IMG/VR virus record: IMGVR_UViG_3300046777_001349
Coordinates: 1 to 39,412 of that record
Source of the DNA: a virus
DNA length: 39,412 nt
Direction: 5' to 3' (one strand)
The notes beneath the pieces were generated by a model. It was given only the letters and a program-made list of their open reading frames with translations, did not search any database and was not told where the DNA came from. Every line of letters starts with the position of its first letter. The first letter of the stretch is position 1. The position numbers and the translations under genes are program-made. Positions 1,485-39,412 of the stretch are shown here, piece after piece.

Positions 1485-1662
1485 ACTTCCCGATGGCTCA
1501 TGCACATACCCTTGCGGTCATGTCGGTGTGTGTGACCATTGCGGAACAATACAAAACGCTGTCACAGTATGGACAGATTTCGAGATAGACGGCTGTGAAT
1601 GTTTATGTCACCTATTGCGACAGCATTACAGCACACTAAAGAAGAAGGGTAAAAAGAAATGA
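1441..1662 (+). CDS. Cys-rich zinc-binding-like small protein
   Basis: 73 residues if started at ATG 1441; GTG 1453 is an alternative. The centre is Cys/His-rich (CTYPCGHVGVCDHCG, then CECLCH), consistent with one or two zinc sites, and the C-terminus is a Lys tail. The stop overlaps the WhiB start (ATGA). No named family recognised. Being coupled to whiB it may be co-expressed with it; a direct partnership is speculation. Confidence 0.6.
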   Translation: MRQSVANPKKTTTTELPDGSCTYPCGHVGVCDHCGTIQNAVTVWTDFEIDGCECLCHLLRQHYSTLKKKGKKK

Positions 1663-1922
1663 CAATGCACCCAGCGTGGTACGACAAAGCTAACTGTAAG
1701 GGTGTTGGTGGGGAAGTGTTCTTCCCTGAACCACAGGTTGGAATTAGTACTAAAGAGTTCTTTGAGGAAGCACAAACTTATTGCAACAAATGCACGGTAC
1801 GGTCAGCTTGCTTAGAGTATGCAATGGCAGCTGAGACACATGACATTCGTAGGTTCGGTATGTTTGGTGGGCTTACTCCACGCCAGCGTGAAGACTTAGC
1901 TAGGAAGCGTGCGGCAAAATGA
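1659..1922 (+). CDS. whiB: WhiB-family [4Fe-4S] transcriptional regulator
   Basis: 87 residues with the four cluster-binding cysteines of the WhiB/Wbl family: Cys13, Cys42, Cys45 and Cys51, in the C-x2-C-x5-C arrangement. The glycine turn appears as GMFGG at 67-71, where the family usually has G-[IV]-W-G-G, so the Trp is replaced by Phe. LTPRQRED and a basic tail complete the DNA-binding end. Wbl proteins bind the primary sigma factor and retune promoters; phage versions are known to interfere with host WhiB2-type functions. It is the last gene of the rightward early block, next to a hairpin facing the leftward cluster. It is strong evidence for an actinobacterial host. Confidence 0.94.
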   Translation: MTMHPAWYDKANCKGVGGEVFFPEPQVGISTKEFFEEAQTYCNKCTVRSACLEYAMAAETHDIRRFGMFGGLTPRQREDLARKRAAK

Positions 1923-3855: not shown

Positions 3856-3892
3856 TATGTCTAACAGTAATACAGATATTTGTGATTGTCAA
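3856..3892 (-). promoter_or_regulatory. Candidate early promoter P1 (leftward)
   Basis: On the minus strand TTGACA (3892-3887) precedes GTATTAC (3873-3867), five bases, then GACATA (3861-3856), about 17 bases before the ATG at 3839. The GTATYAC-N5-GAYA block recurs upstream of three other transcription units in this genome. TTGACA is a perfect -35 hexamer and overlaps the stop of the upstream gene. The -10 is not canonical. Confidence 0.55.
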
Positions 3893-4336: not shown

Positions 4337-4617
4337 GCCGTCACCTCGCCTGCATACACTGCTACCGCCCCATCTGTAATTGTTGAAGTTATCCAGTGTC
4401 CGCCCCAGTTTGCTTTAGTGACATATTGGCGCACTGCTTCGGCGTAGTTCTCGCTTGGGTCTAGTGCGTAATTCCATGACACCATGATTTTTTGCGGGTC
4501 TTTGCCGTGTGTGTTGCTTTCGTAGCGTGAGACCGTAATCCTTCCGCTGTTGCCTAGATACTTACACCTAAGCGTAACCCTGTGGCTTTCGGTCACATAG
4601 TTGGTTTTTGTTGTCAT
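4333..4617 (-). CDS. 94-residue protein of unknown function, first gene of a leftward unit
   Basis: Alternating polar/hydrophobic segments suggest a beta-rich domain (HRVTLRCKYLG, GRITVSRYES, QKIMVSWNYAL), followed by a helix (NYAEAVRQYV) and a C-terminal strand. The ATG at 4617 follows GAAGGGAAAAGCAA and the shared promoter-like motif at 4637-4654. The stop overlaps the next start (ATGA). No family recognised. Confidence 0.7.
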   Translation of the reverse strand: MTTKTNYVTESHRVTLRCKYLGNSGRITVSRYESNTHGKDPQKIMVSWNYALDPSENYAEAVRQYVTKANWGGHWITSTITDGAVAVYAGEVTA

Positions 4618-4636: not shown

Positions 4637-4670
4637 TGTGTCTTACTGTAATACAGCCTAGTGGCTGTAT
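4637..4670 (-). promoter_or_regulatory. Candidate early promoter P2 with overlapping palindrome
   Basis: On the minus strand GTATTAC (4654-4648), five bases, then GACACA (4642-4637) matches the shared GTATYAC-N5-GAYA block. An 8-bp perfect inverted repeat, ATACAGCC (4651-4658) with GGCTGTAT (4663-4670) and a 4-nt spacer, overlaps it and could be an operator or RNA hairpin. The leader runs AACTACGAAGGGAAAAGC to the ATG at 4617. A TTGACT lies further upstream. Confidence 0.5.
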
Positions 4671-4673
4671 CGC

Positions 4674-4718
4674 CCTCTAGTCAAGTCATGAACCTGCGCC
4701 GCCTACACGGTCTAGAGG
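4674..4718. repeat. Inverted repeat CCTCTAG / CTAGAGG
   Basis: CCTCTAG (4674-4680) and CTAGAGG (4712-4718) form a perfect 7-bp inverted repeat with a 31-nt spacer, in the gap between the unit ending at 4726 and promoter P2. It may help end leftward transcription from the upstream unit or be a protein-binding site. No T tract is evident. Confidence 0.35.
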
Positions 4719-5135: not shown

Positions 5136-5181
5136 GCTTTCCCCGTTCTGTAGTTGGTTTGTGTGTCGGCTTTCGCCTTGT

Positions 5182-5221
5182 CCCTAGTCCGAATCGAATC
5201 GGCACGGCTAAACCGCTAGGG
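5182..5221 (-). other. Compact three-way-junction RNA-like element
   Basis: Three nested/adjacent perfect inverted repeats fall in 40 nt: closing stem CCCTAG (5182-5187) with CTAGGG (5216-5221), enclosing hairpin CCGA/TCGG (5189-5202) and hairpin CGG/CCG (5205-5215). The first inner hairpin loop reads TTCGAT on the minus strand, like a tRNA T loop. It sits in the leader between the genes at 5230 and 5135. It may be a processing site, attenuator or tRNA mimic. Strand assignment is inferred from flanking genes. Confidence 0.45.
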
Positions 5222-5229
5222 GGAACTTG

Positions 5230-5391
5230 TTACGCCTTGAAGGTAAGCAAGCCACAAGCCTCTAGAAATCGCTTGCGGTCGAATCGTGGATTGTCTGCCT
5301 CGAATATTTCGGCAAGTTCCAAAGTGATATAGATGATGTCCTTGCCCTTTGCGATTGCTAAAGCAATTTTTTCGTAGTCTTTCTTTGTCAT
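5230..5391 (-). CDS. Small conserved phage protein (MTKKDYEKIA type)
   Basis: 53 residues: MTKKDYEKIALAIAKGKD, then ADNPRFDRKRFLEACG. The N-terminal KDY-IA-AIA helix and the DNPRFDR-RF--ACG end match a very common mini-protein of phages and some plasmids, of unknown function. It is the first leftward gene after the control region, with AAAGGGGAAACC before the ATG and promoter-like element P3 upstream. Confidence 0.75.
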   Translation of the reverse strand: MTKKDYEKIALAIAKGKDIIYITLELAEIFEADNPRFDRKRFLEACGLLTFKA

Positions 5392-5429
5392 GGTTTCCCC
5401 TTTGTTGGTTGATTTCTTACAGATACCAA

Positions 5430-5456
5430 TTTATCCAACCGTGATACAGACCACAA
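5430..5456 (-). promoter_or_regulatory. Candidate early promoter P3 (leftward)
   Basis: On the minus strand GTATCAC (5447-5441), five bases, then GATAAA (5435-5430), with TTGTGG (5456-5451) upstream as a possible -35. GTATCAC-N5-GATAA is identical in layout to the element before the recombination operon (36559-36576). The ATG at 5391 lies 38 nt downstream after GGGGAAA. Confidence 0.5.
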
Positions 5457-6338: not shown

Positions 6339-6401
6339 GAAAAACGATGGGAGTCGAACCCACGCTTTGACAAGAAAAACTGCGCCGTAATGTCGCTTCT
6401 C
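6339..6401 (-). pseudogene. Degenerate, shortened tRNA-like element
   Basis: Minus-strand GTGGG-TTCGACT-CCCAT (6363-6347) is a proper T arm with a 5-bp stem and consensus loop. The next bases, CGTTTTTC, pair fully (counting G-T) with GAGAAGCG at 6401-6394, giving an acceptor-like stem with an extra terminal G-C pair. GGCGCAGT, common in tRNA D arms, follows the 5' strand. Only about 30 nt separate the acceptor strand from the T arm instead of about 41, and no anticodon stem forms. It looks like a deleted tRNA, an attachment-site relic, or a mini-tRNA mimic. Confidence 0.45.
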
Positions 6402-20814: not shown

Positions 20815-20924
20815 TCGTAATACCTTCACGGGCAACCCCCGAACCGTGCGGAGCAATAGGGGTGACAAATCAACAGCAGCCATCACTACCCTCCAGAGTG
20901 ATGTGGGCAAAAGGAGAGTGCCAT

Positions 20925-36282: not shown

Positions 36283-36552
36283 ATGGAAGAAGGGCGTAAA
36301 TACCCCGTACTTTTGGTGACATGGGCTGATACCCACATGTCCCAAGGCGGCTGGTTGGAACTTGCTGACTACGAAGACGACGGAGAGTGCATCGTCTCAT
36401 CAGTAGGTTTCCACATTCCTGTTGGCGACCCTGGCTCAAAAGATAAACACGTTACCCTTTGGCAGAGCTTCTCTAAAGACGAAGGTATCCATGCAATCCA
36501 TATCCCAGTGGGCATGGTAAGAGAATTAAAAATTCTGAACGAACCTAGTTGA
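36283..36552 (+). CDS. Small protein of unknown function, beta-rich
   Basis: 89 residues. KYPVLLVTWADTHMSQGGWL, ECIVSSVGFHIPVGD, then KHVTLWQSFSKDEGIHAIHI: alternating strands with several Trp/His, suggesting a compact beta-barrel. No strong ribosome site before ATG 36283. Its stop overlaps the -35 element of the promoter candidate that drives the recombination operon. No family identified. Confidence 0.7.
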   Translation: MEEGRKYPVLLVTWADTHMSQGGWLELADYEDDGECIVSSVGFHIPVGDPGSKDKHVTLWQSFSKDEGIHAIHIPVGMVRELKILNEPS

Positions 36553-36576
36553 CATACGGTATCACCATCAGATAAG
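36549..36576 (+). promoter_or_regulatory. Candidate early promoter of the recombination operon
   Basis: TTGACA (36549-36554), 16 bases, GATAAG (36571-36576). Between them GTATCAC at 36559-36565 lies five bases before GATAAG, the layout also seen in P3 and similar in P1 and P2. TCACC (36563-36567?) and GGTGA just downstream form a small dyad over the -10, a possible operator. The leader ends AACTACAAGAAGGGAAATAC before ATG 36611. Confidence 0.6.
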
Positions 36577-36610
36577 GTGACACCAAGGGAAACTACAAGA
36601 AGGGAAATAC

Positions 36611-37567
36611 ATGAACATCAAACGTTATCGTATTCATAAAAACGAACACGGTGGACAAGACTGGTTGAACGACCGCTTCTGGGATGCAGAGAAACGCAAA
36701 CGAGTTTCAGCATCAGCAGTCGCAGCAATCTACGGGCTACACCCATTCGTACCAGCAGACAGATACGCAGCTGAGTTACTAGGTGATACACCCCCTGCAC
36801 CTATCGAACCAACATGGGCAATGACACGCGGCAACGACCTCGAACCATTGTGCATCAAATGGGCAATAGATAAAACAGGAATCCCATTCGTCACACCTGA
36901 AGAAATGTTTGTTGCAGAAACAGACAACGGTGCGCGAATGATTGCCACACTTGACGGCTTCTATGAGAACGGTGACGAGCGAAAGATTCTCGAAATCAAA
37001 ACCTCATCACGCCCATGGGAAGGCGAACTACCTGACTACTGGCGTATCCAAGGAATACAGCAAGCCATCTGTGCCGACACCAACCTCGTTACATGGGGTG
37101 TATTCGATAACACGATGAGCCTGTACATCTATGAGCAACACATCAGCGACGATGAGAAGCAAGAACATTGTGATGCTGTAGCAAAATGGTTGTCCGCTAT
37201 CGACCTTGGTATGACACCCGAAGGTGTGAACTGGTCATATGAAACCATTAGTACCCGCTACCAAAAGGTGGAGCATACCTCAGTTGAACTGCCAGCCACA
37301 GCAAAAGAACTAGTAGCACAACTAAAGCATGTGAAGTCGGAAGCGAAGTCGTTAGCAGAACTAGAAGACAAACTTAAAGCTGAACTGTGTGAGTTGATTG
37401 GCTCTAACGAAGTTGCTACGGTGGACGGAACAATCGTTGCAACATGGAAGGGTCGCACATGGGAATCGCTAGACATTAAACGATTGAAAGCATTAGAACC
37501 TGAGATAGCAGCAAAGTACAGCAAACCAACAACAACACGAACACTTCTCTTGAAAGGGGAAAAGTAA
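36611..37567 (+). CDS. YqaJ-type (lambda exonuclease fold) recombination nuclease
   Basis: 318 residues. Family residues are in order: RVSASAVAAIYGLHPF near 31-46; RGNDLEP with Glu78; ARMIATLDGF with Asp115; ILEIKTSS with Glu128 and Lys130; YWRIQGIQQA with Gln147/150. These form the PD-(D/E)xK core of YqaJ/lambda exonucleases, which resect double-strand ends to make 3' single strands. About 90 C-terminal residues form a coiled coil (VAQLKHVKSEAKSLAELEDK) and a small extra domain. The ATG follows GAAGGGAAATAC, and the next gene (the annealing protein) is coupled by TAATG. Confidence 0.93.
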   Translation: MNIKRYRIHKNEHGGQDWLNDRFWDAEKRKRVSASAVAAIYGLHPFVPADRYAAELLGDTPPAPIEPTWAMTRGNDLEPLCIKWAIDKTGIPFVTPEEMFVAETDNGARMIATLDGFYENGDERKILEIKTSSRPWEGELPDYWRIQGIQQAICADTNLVTWGVFDNTMSLYIYEQHISDDEKQEHCDAVAKWLSAIDLGMTPEGVNWSYETISTRYQKVEHTSVELPATAKELVAQLKHVKSEAKSLAELEDKLKAELCELIGSNEVATVDGTIVATWKGRTWESLDIKRLKALEPEIAAKYSKPTTTRTLLLKGEK

Positions 37568-38226
37568 TGGAAGAACAAGCAATCAAAGAAGCACTACGCG
37601 ATGTGCTTGACAAGCATGGTGTACCTGACAAGTCAATCGTGGGCAAACTTCCACGCGGCGGAGGTTCACTCGATTTTGTCGGGCATGCGGAAATCACCAA
37701 AATTCTTATCGAGGTAGACCCACTATGGTCATGGCAACCATGCGGCTGGAACGAAGGACGACCAGCAATCCATGTAGTCAACGGCATGGCAGTCATGTGG
37801 GGAATCCTTACCGTTCACGGCAAAGACATCATCGGTGTTGGCTCAGTCAAACACGACAAAGCTGAACTTGACAAAGAACTTATCGGAGATTTCCTACGCA
37901 ACGCCGCAATGCGTTTCGGTATCTCATTGTCCCTGTGGTCGAAGCAGGAATGGGAAGGACAAGAAATAGCGGGGAAGGTACAGACCAATAGCAAGGTAGC
38001 GAATCCGCTTGCTACCAAACCTACTGAACCTTCTCCCGTGAACGAAGACAAACCACTATCACAACAACAAGTAAAACAATTCGTTGATGCTTGTGACAAA
38101 GTTGGTTTAGACCCAGCCATCGTTGCATCAAAAGCAAAGCTGAACTGGGACGGAGTAATCATGCAGTCACAGCTACCTGTTTTGCGTGACGCTTTCACCG
38201 CAATGAAGAACGAGGGTGGTAACTAA
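37567..38226 (+). CDS. Rad52/Sak-like single-strand annealing protein
   Basis: 219 residues. IVGKLPRGGGSLDFVGHAEI followed by TKILIEVDPLWSWQPCGWN, GMAVMWGILTVHGKDIIGVG and DFLRNAAMRFGISLSLW is the core pattern of phage Rad52-type (Sak-like) annealases. The Pro/Thr linker and the helical C-terminus (LSQQQVKQFVDACDKVGLDP) resemble interaction tails. It pairs with the YqaJ exonuclease in the usual exonuclease-annealase arrangement, and the SSB at 744 would be its partner. Overlaps TAATG at both ends. Confidence 0.82.
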   Translation: MEEQAIKEALRDVLDKHGVPDKSIVGKLPRGGGSLDFVGHAEITKILIEVDPLWSWQPCGWNEGRPAIHVVNGMAVMWGILTVHGKDIIGVGSVKHDKAELDKELIGDFLRNAAMRFGISLSLWSKQEWEGQEIAGKVQTNSKVANPLATKPTEPSPVNEDKPLSQQQVKQFVDACDKVGLDPAIVASKAKLNWDGVIMQSQLPVLRDAFTAMKNEGGN

Positions 38227-38420
38227 TGGCAGCGAAACGGACAGTAGACCCAACAGGTTCAGCACCGTCAACCAAGATGGTGTCAATGCGTCTTACCGCA
38301 CACCAACTGTCATGGGTAGAAACCATCTGTAAGAAACGTGGCTGGTCGCGTAGCGCATTGTTCCGCATGTTGTTAGATGAGGAGGTGCAACGTGTCGAAG
38401 GAGCGAGCCAAGGGAACTAG
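38226..38420 (+). CDS. Ribbon-helix-helix DNA-binding protein
   Basis: 64 residues. STKMVSMRLTAHQLSWVETI followed by KKRGWSRSALFRMLLDEEV has the strand-helix-helix layout of small RHH (CopG/MetJ-type) regulators: a short strand for DNA contact, then two helices with the SRSALFR helix start. Basic N-terminus. It is a plausible repressor of the early operators and the only dedicated regulator besides WhiB. The start overlaps the annealase stop (TAATG), and the 3' end overlaps the next gene by 29 nt. Confidence 0.75.
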   Translation: MAAKRTVDPTGSAPSTKMVSMRLTAHQLSWVETICKKRGWSRSALFRMLLDEEVQRVEGASQGN

Positions 38421-38945: not shown

Positions 38946-39372
38946 GCGTAGCGAAGGTTACGAACCAACACATGACATCAAACAATTTGACTTCACAAAA
39001 GACTTAGAGTTCGGTCATCACGGTGAAGAACTAGTACAACAGTTTCTTTCTAAGTTGAGCGAAGGTTCTTTTGAGGTGAAGTATGACCGTTTCCGTAATG
39101 GTCGTATCTTCGTTGAGTACGAACAGAACCCGCGTAATACAGGTTGGAAACCATCAGGGATTGCCACTAGTAAAGCCAAATGGTGGGTGTATTTGTTCTC
39201 ACCTAATGCGTTTGTTATAATTGAAACCAGCAGGCTACGCCGATACATAAAAGCAAATGTCGATAGGTTACAAACCCGAACGGCAGCCGCAGACTCCGAC
39301 AATCCAGCGAAAGGATTTCTCATATACCCAGAACAGGTAAAGGAGTTGATGTCAGTATCCATCTACGATTAG
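38938..39372 (+). CDS. Possible PD-(D/E)xK-like nuclease of unknown role
   Basis: 144 residues from GTG 38938, overlapping the previous gene by 8 nt. LEFGHHGEELVQQFLSKL (Glu30), EVKYDRFRNGRIFVEYEQ (Asp50, Glu60 or 62) and SGIATSKAKWWVYLFSP read like the core of restriction-endonuclease-fold proteins. The Lys of the E-x-K motif is not clearly placed. The C-terminus ends YPEQVKELMSVSIYD. It follows other recombination genes. Its last 31 codons are repeated at the left end of the window. Confidence 0.65.
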   Translation: MVERSEGYEPTHDIKQFDFTKDLEFGHHGEELVQQFLSKLSEGSFEVKYDRFRNGRIFVEYEQNPRNTGWKPSGIATSKAKWWVYLFSPNAFVIIETSRLRRYIKANVDRLQTRTAAADSDNPAKGFLIYPEQVKELMSVSIYD

Positions 39373-39402
39373 GAGAAACAATGTTAAAGATTTTTATAGC
39401 AA
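39277..39402. repeat. Terminal direct repeat, right copy
   Basis: Identical to bases 1-126. Beyond it, bases 39403, 39408 and 39409 differ from 127, 132 and 133, which changes two residues of the lysozyme-like signal peptide. Confidence 0.95.
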
Positions 39403-39412
39403 TACTTGTAGG
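39381..39412 (+). CDS. 5' end of the lysozyme-like gene (second copy, cut by window end)
   Basis: The ATG at 39381 corresponds to 105, with the same AGGAGA upstream. Ten codons are present before the window ends. They read MLKIFIAIL-V against MLKIFIATL-T in the left copy, two Thr-to-hydrophobic changes in the signal core. Confidence 0.9.
   Translation, partial: MLKIFIAILV

Follow-up and report, generated by a model that had tools for sequence, protein, structure and literature searches.

Repressors of the ribbon-helix-helix (RHH) type include Arc of phage P22 and the autorepressors CopG, MetJ and omega. The latter protein (ParB of pSM19035) binds 7-bp repeats found in mixed orientations (PMC9499535). 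In the archaeal virus SIRV2, most early genes have one conserved sequence around their promoter core, and Aca8 is the predicted autoregulator (PMC11065993). Repeated regulatory sites are also present in mycobacteriophages, namely the SAS and ESAS of cluster K and the stoperators of cluster A (PMC3203893, PMC9283540). The phage sequence analyzed here probably encodes an early regulon in which an operator-like box, common to the early promoters of both strands, would be autoregulated via an RHH protein.

The window, i.e. the whole stretch of 39,412 nucleotides under analysis, is a 39.4 kb phage record with a GC content of 47.5%. Its ends overlap by 131 bp (1-131 versus 39277-39407) with 99% identity, and the record therefore looks like a complete genome that closes circularly, with slight microdiversity. 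As a consequence of this closure, the rightward early run starting at 36611 spans the window ends and terminates at 1922. This run encodes a YqaJ/RecE-like exonuclease opening the operon (36611..37567, +; protein scans), a single-strand annealing protein (SSAP; 37567..38226, +; phrog_3290), the 64-aa RHH protein considered as candidate regulator of the box (38226..38420, +; Pfam, Foldseek and operon position), a RusA-like protein, an SSB and, in final position, a WhiB-like protein (1659..1922, +; protein scans and circular closure). A leftward run of small genes extends from 5391 down to 1993 and is opened by the gene of a 53-aa protein (5230..5391, -; protein scans). The late region, from 6559 to approximately 36500, contains the packaging and structural genes. 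In the long noncoding region ahead of these late genes, a stretch resembling the 3' half of a tRNA, GTGGGTTCGACTCCCATC, is present at 6340-6365(-). ARAGORN detected no tRNA at this position and the stretch is absent from the relatives that were checked; it is possibly an old att-like remnant or a chance resemblance.

Phage records were searched for a near DNA match to the window and none was found. Genome contigs were likewise searched with the RHH and YqaJ proteins for a clue to the host, and returned no relative. The cultured phages E7 and F5 (records OX376640 and OX376641) infect 'Ca. Planktophila' (PMC10202952) and are distant relatives of the window, matching its terminase, portal and one more protein with 23-29% identity. 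A freshwater actinobacterium is therefore the probable host, in agreement with the presence of the WhiB gene.

A pattern scan of the window with GTATYAC-N5-GAYA returned exactly four matches, located at 3858-3873(-), 4639-4654(-), 5432-5447(-) and 36559-36574(+), against 0.06 expected, and none of 100 shuffles reached four. These are the four copies on two strands reported in a preliminary description of this DNA, whose coordinates were two bases too long. All copies share an additional T, and GTATYACNNT is absent elsewhere in the window. Far from being equally frequent inside genes, the motif was found in none: the four copies are all outside the ORF set, noncoding DNA representing 6.1% of the window (chance of four out of four, 1.4e-5). 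A fifth noncoding site at 20817-20823(-) was discarded, being conserved in the closest relative only. Each copy had been described as preceding the first gene of a unit, which is correct for 5391 and 36611; the genes at 4617 and 3840 lie within the leftward run. The leaders combining AACTAC with a GGGAAA-type ribosome site are indeed present at 4637(-), 5155(-) and 36591(+). In relatives, they are a portion of an A/C-rich stretch ahead of the ribosome site; they were rejected as a second regulatory element in view of their translational appearance.

The promoters associated with these copies display host-type hexamers. A SigA-type arrangement (TTGACA, 16-18 nt, TANNNT) is observed at 36549, 3892 and 4684, the last being ambiguous as it is located inside the stems of an RNA described below, and the promoter at 5456 has a weaker -35 (TTGTGG). 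In the rightward early promoter, the -35 TTGACA (36549..36554, +), conserved in 48 distinct promoters of the YqaJ gene, is separated by an 18-nt spacer from the -10 TAAGGT (36573..36578, +; promoter hexamer scan). The spacer contains the box GTATCAC (36559..36565, +; motif scan and relatives), and a second, inverted box-like arm GTGACAC is found at 36577..36583(+) (sequence and relatives), which becomes a perfect GTGATAC in relatives. The GTATCAC-N11-GTGACAC pair of the window is a degenerate form of the two facing boxes, GTATCAC-N10/11-GTGATAC, carried by several relatives' promoters.

The leftward early promoter at 5456 was delineated by alignment with two relatives, L046 and L052. It consists of the -35-like TTGTGG (5451..5456, -), the box GTATCAC in the spacer (5441..5447, -; motif scan and alignment) and, with a 17-nt spacer, the -10 TAAATT (5428..5433, -). 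A second box-like word, GTATCTG (5420..5426, -), lies 21 bp from the first. The same gene in L046 and L052 has its box at an equal position relative to the -10, followed 21 bp further on by another box-like word (GTATTTG and GTAGTTG, respectively). A TGTANNTGTAAGG-like word is conserved directly after the -10 of this promoter of the 53-aa gene (5410-5430(-); L046, L052, L016, L066, L068), and this start-region word occurs in phages without the box too. At the third promoter, the -35 TTGACA (3887..3892, -; promoter hexamer scan) and the -10 TACTGT (3864..3869, -; class conserved in relatives) are separated by 17 nt, and a 15-bp near-palindrome, GTATTAC-T-GTTAGAC (3859..3873, -; sequence and relatives), lies over the -10. 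Relatives' promoters of this class carry GTACTAC-G-GTTAGAC and like 15-bp near-palindromes.

Comparison with related phages confirmed the shared element linking early promoters of both strands, which is conserved at early promoters in about 100 loci. Scanning with the YqaJ protein produced 41 loci, and the addition of RHH-based loci raised the set to 48 distinct YqaJ promoters. The arrangement TTGACA-N4-GTATNAC-N6/7-TANNNT precedes YqaJ in most of the 41 relatives, the most divergent of them differing. Across the 48 promoters, GTATTAC, GTATCAC or GTGATAC occurs at offset 9-11 from the -35, and GTGATAC or GTATTAC at offset 27. The box is GTATGAC in one clade (L015, L021, L022), and the exact box is absent at these offsets in three outliers (L017/L018, L038 and L226). 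In L199, the spacer word is exactly inverted with respect to the close relatives L189/L200 (TGGGTATCACACCCG versus CGGGTGTGATACCCA), thereby flipping the box orientation. A pattern scan of the entire collection returned 48 stretches; those ahead of phage early genes share the promoter architecture and the others look like unrelated coding matches. None of the GTATYAC words of E7 and F5 is located at a promoter.

The box is present in 27 of 40 distinct promoters from 13 genomes versus 2.3% of random 48-bp windows, and in 3 of 19 TTGAC-N-TANNNT pairs not ahead of genes (Fisher p 2.5e-4); these figures give a direction rather than an exact significance, since the regular expression was derived a posteriori from these very sequences and the genomes are related to one another, the p-values therefore overstating independence. 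The offsets from the -35 in these 40 promoters are restricted to 9-10, 19, 27 or 30, and most sites with an offset of 19 or 29-30 form 15-bp near-palindromes with 4-6 of 7 pairs. A matrix built from relatives only ranked the window sites at 4654 (21.9 bits) and 3873 (20.0 bits) first and second, compared to a maximum of 16.2 bits in 40 simulated genomes, a ranking that is not an independent test because some relatives contain identical 15-mers. In G007, G012 and the L022 contig, the YqaJ box (GTATGAC) and the box of a second promoter (GTCATAC, the reverse complement) are altered together, as a shared reader would require, though these are close relatives. G002 is an exception, as two of its promoters differ in their box (GTATGAC versus GTAATAC).

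The 4639 copy borders, on the 3' side, a strongly covarying fold located directly upstream. A three-way-junction RNA (P1-P2-P3), followed by a hairpin P4 and a TACAGTAAGACA tail, was identified at 4637..4718(-) with a covariance model (84.4 bits), and the GTAT of the 15-bp near-palindrome GTATTAC-A-GTAAGAC (4640..4654, -; sequence and fold) is also part of the P4 3' arm. A second copy is found before gene 5135 (5154..5222, -; covariance model, 27.4 bits, and folding). The model retrieved approximately 56 copies in 30 sources, with up to four per contig, including the relatives L109, L111, L123 and L146 as well as E7 (L238; 1360-1434, 1716-1794 and 2128-2207) and F5 (L239; 23538-23611). Among 54 distinct sequences, 92.9% of the cells pair versus 59.7% when shuffled, in an alignment that was fitted to the structure; 25 of the 26 pairs change on both sides, with a covariation score of 0.602 versus 0.142. 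Minimum free energy folding produced the three-way junction in 42 of 45 distinct copies versus 3.4% of shuffles, these copies having been selected by the covariance model, with those of E7 and F5 outside its training set. G-U pairs are frequent in the fold, which points to an element acting as RNA. All 49 copies examined lie upstream of a ribosome site and its start codon, most of them about 8-19 nt past a stop codon. Rfam gave no relevant match for the 4637-4718 RNA at E <= 0.5, and an sR38 match in L123 (E 0.016, 27.7 bits versus a gathering score of 50) was judged to be due to chance. Two simpler interpretations were discarded. A plain promoter at 4639 (TTGACT-N18-TAGGCT) would have its -35 within the RNA stems, and this -35 becomes GTAACT in L136 and L141 with pairing kept. 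A hairpin formed by GTATYAC-N-GTWAGAC itself is at odds with the poor pairing of the GTTAGAC variants and with the location of the promoter copies, mostly upstream of the expected start.

In our estimation, there is a good likelihood that the 4637 copy is one member of an RNA family not yet described. This family, made of a compact three-way junction and a hairpin, would occur several times per genome, between the stop codon of an early gene and the start of the following one, in freshwater-actinobacterial phages that include E7 and F5, and the GTATYAC/RHH operator regulon would be overlaid on the same genes in one branch. The RNA is independent of the box regulon, because the TACAGTWAGACA tail is found on only 14 of 49 copies and because E7 and F5 possess the RNA without the RHH protein; it is a separate finding, more novel than the regulon. 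Its placement would best fit a role in reinitiation control, in mRNA processing or in insulating one cistron from the next, and the RNA could serve in the processing, the insulation or the translational control of each early cistron.

Only the RHH and WhiB proteins were recognized as DNA-binding regulators among the proteins scanned. The RHH fold assignment is sound: Pfam RHH_1 was detected in 12 of 12 family members (best 1.4e-6), the window protein alone being under the Pfam cutoff, the top Foldseek matches are CopASO, CopG and Arc (prob 0.97-1.00, best E 0.065), and the AF2 model displays helices at 25-38 and 42-61. In relatives, the RHH gene is the third of the rightward operon, after YqaJ and SSAP. 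It is present in all eight records of a second set having a YqaJ gene; the records of this set without RHH are fragments that also lack YqaJ, and two more fragments have RHH only. No match to the RHH or YqaJ protein was found in E7 and F5. The RHH gene thus sits in an operon whose promoter bears the sites, and these repeated or dyad sites overlap the promoter. The RHH protein appears as the likeliest reader of the box, and its proposal as binder in the preliminary description is plausible on the basis of its matched fold and constant place in the operon. Co-occurrence does not single it out since RHH tracks the operon everywhere. Its DNA-contact strand displays no clean co-variation with the box letters (L017/L018 have the same promoter and a different strand), and letter covariation from promoter to promoter is limited to three close relatives.

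The sequences themselves show a conserved box, placed over TTGACA/TANNNT promoters in registers and orientations that shift, and an RHH gene that is constant in the operon. From these we infer an operator role, with RHH as ligand and repression as effect. GTATYAC would be an operator-like box overlaid on host-type (SigA-like) early promoters of both strands, and the RHH protein produced from gene 3 of the rightward operon would bind one or two boxes. Once bound, it would block RNA polymerase, and early transcription would be strong first and then shut itself off. Taken as a whole, this explanation is given an even chance of being correct. The phage-specific promoter class suggested previously was abandoned, as the hexamers are ordinary TTGACA/TANNNT and GTATYAC is an added box.

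It is conceivable, if rather doubtful, that two look-alike elements are confounded here, a spacer box GTATYAC (36559, 5432) and a -10/start module TACNGTWAGACATA (3858, 4639) that is often located after an RNA hairpin. The conserved part at 3858 and 4639 may be just the -10 TACNGT and the start region: TACTGT at 3858 is correctly spaced (17) from TTGACA, GTAT at 4639 coincides with the 3' arm of P4, L054 and L056 retain ACAGTWAGACA without GTATTAC, and the module is found in just 14 of 49 RNA copies. However, GT(A/G) ahead of the -10 is kept in class-III promoters although it falls outside the -10 or extended -10, and all four window sites fit a single 16-bp pattern plus a further T. YqaJ promoters also have boxes shifted to the -10/start region, and the paired letter change in G007, G012 and L022 likewise argues for a single element. 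As for the 4639 copy, its overlap with an RNA structure makes its identity with the other boxes possible but insecure.

A box belonging to the core promoter, as a spacer motif recognized by RNA polymerase (with a sigma factor from host or phage) or by an activator binding the spacer, is improbable. Such a role would account for the near-constant GTATNAC-N7-TANNNT position in YqaJ promoters and for the adjacency of the box to near-consensus hexamers in every case, but the offset from the -35 varies (9-10, 19, 27, 30), the orientation flips, and near-consensus hexamers 16-18 nt apart require no activator. A word kept while its register and orientation shift is better explained by an operator than by a core-promoter element. 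A phage sigma factor was rejected as reader, since Pfam and PHROG scans recognized none among the proteins encoded in the window. The -35 is where Wbl proteins work together with region 4 of sigma-A; the WhiB-like protein, also proposed earlier as binder, is encoded in the early run that contains the RHH gene and is shared by relatives, but it is a most improbable reader because the box is located between or downstream of the hexamers and not at the upstream edge of the -35.

The operator box with its candidate RHH repressor would provide a testable early control circuit for one group of phages infecting abundant and hard-to-handle freshwater bacteria, made up of a single small protein, a 7-bp box of defined sequence and promoters on the two strands. 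The small leftward genes are marked as early and are likely candidates for host takeover or counter-defence; motif-guided searches gave such candidates in archaeal viruses (PMC11065993). The RNA fold, if confirmed, would represent a new class of structured RNA with many natural variants, including some in cultured phages.

Of the systems described, SIRV2 with Aca8 resembles the present locus in that one early-promoter sequence goes together with a DNA-binding protein, itself early and presumed to switch the genes off, but it belongs to another domain of life and involves another protein fold, whereas the promoters here are of the host bacterial type. The SAS/ESAS and stoperators are, as here, repeated sites at actinophage gene starts, the ESAS being inverted repeats; SAS adjoin start codons and stoperators are numerous genome-wide, whereas only four sites, placed over promoter hexamers, are present here. 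As with P22 Arc, CopG, MetJ and omega, a small RHH protein is encoded in a unit whose promoter has short repeated or dyad boxes. In contrast to these repressors, the candidate RHH protein belongs to a recombination operon of a phage whose hosts are probably freshwater actinobacteria, and its boxes belong to promoters of either strand and occupy several registers.
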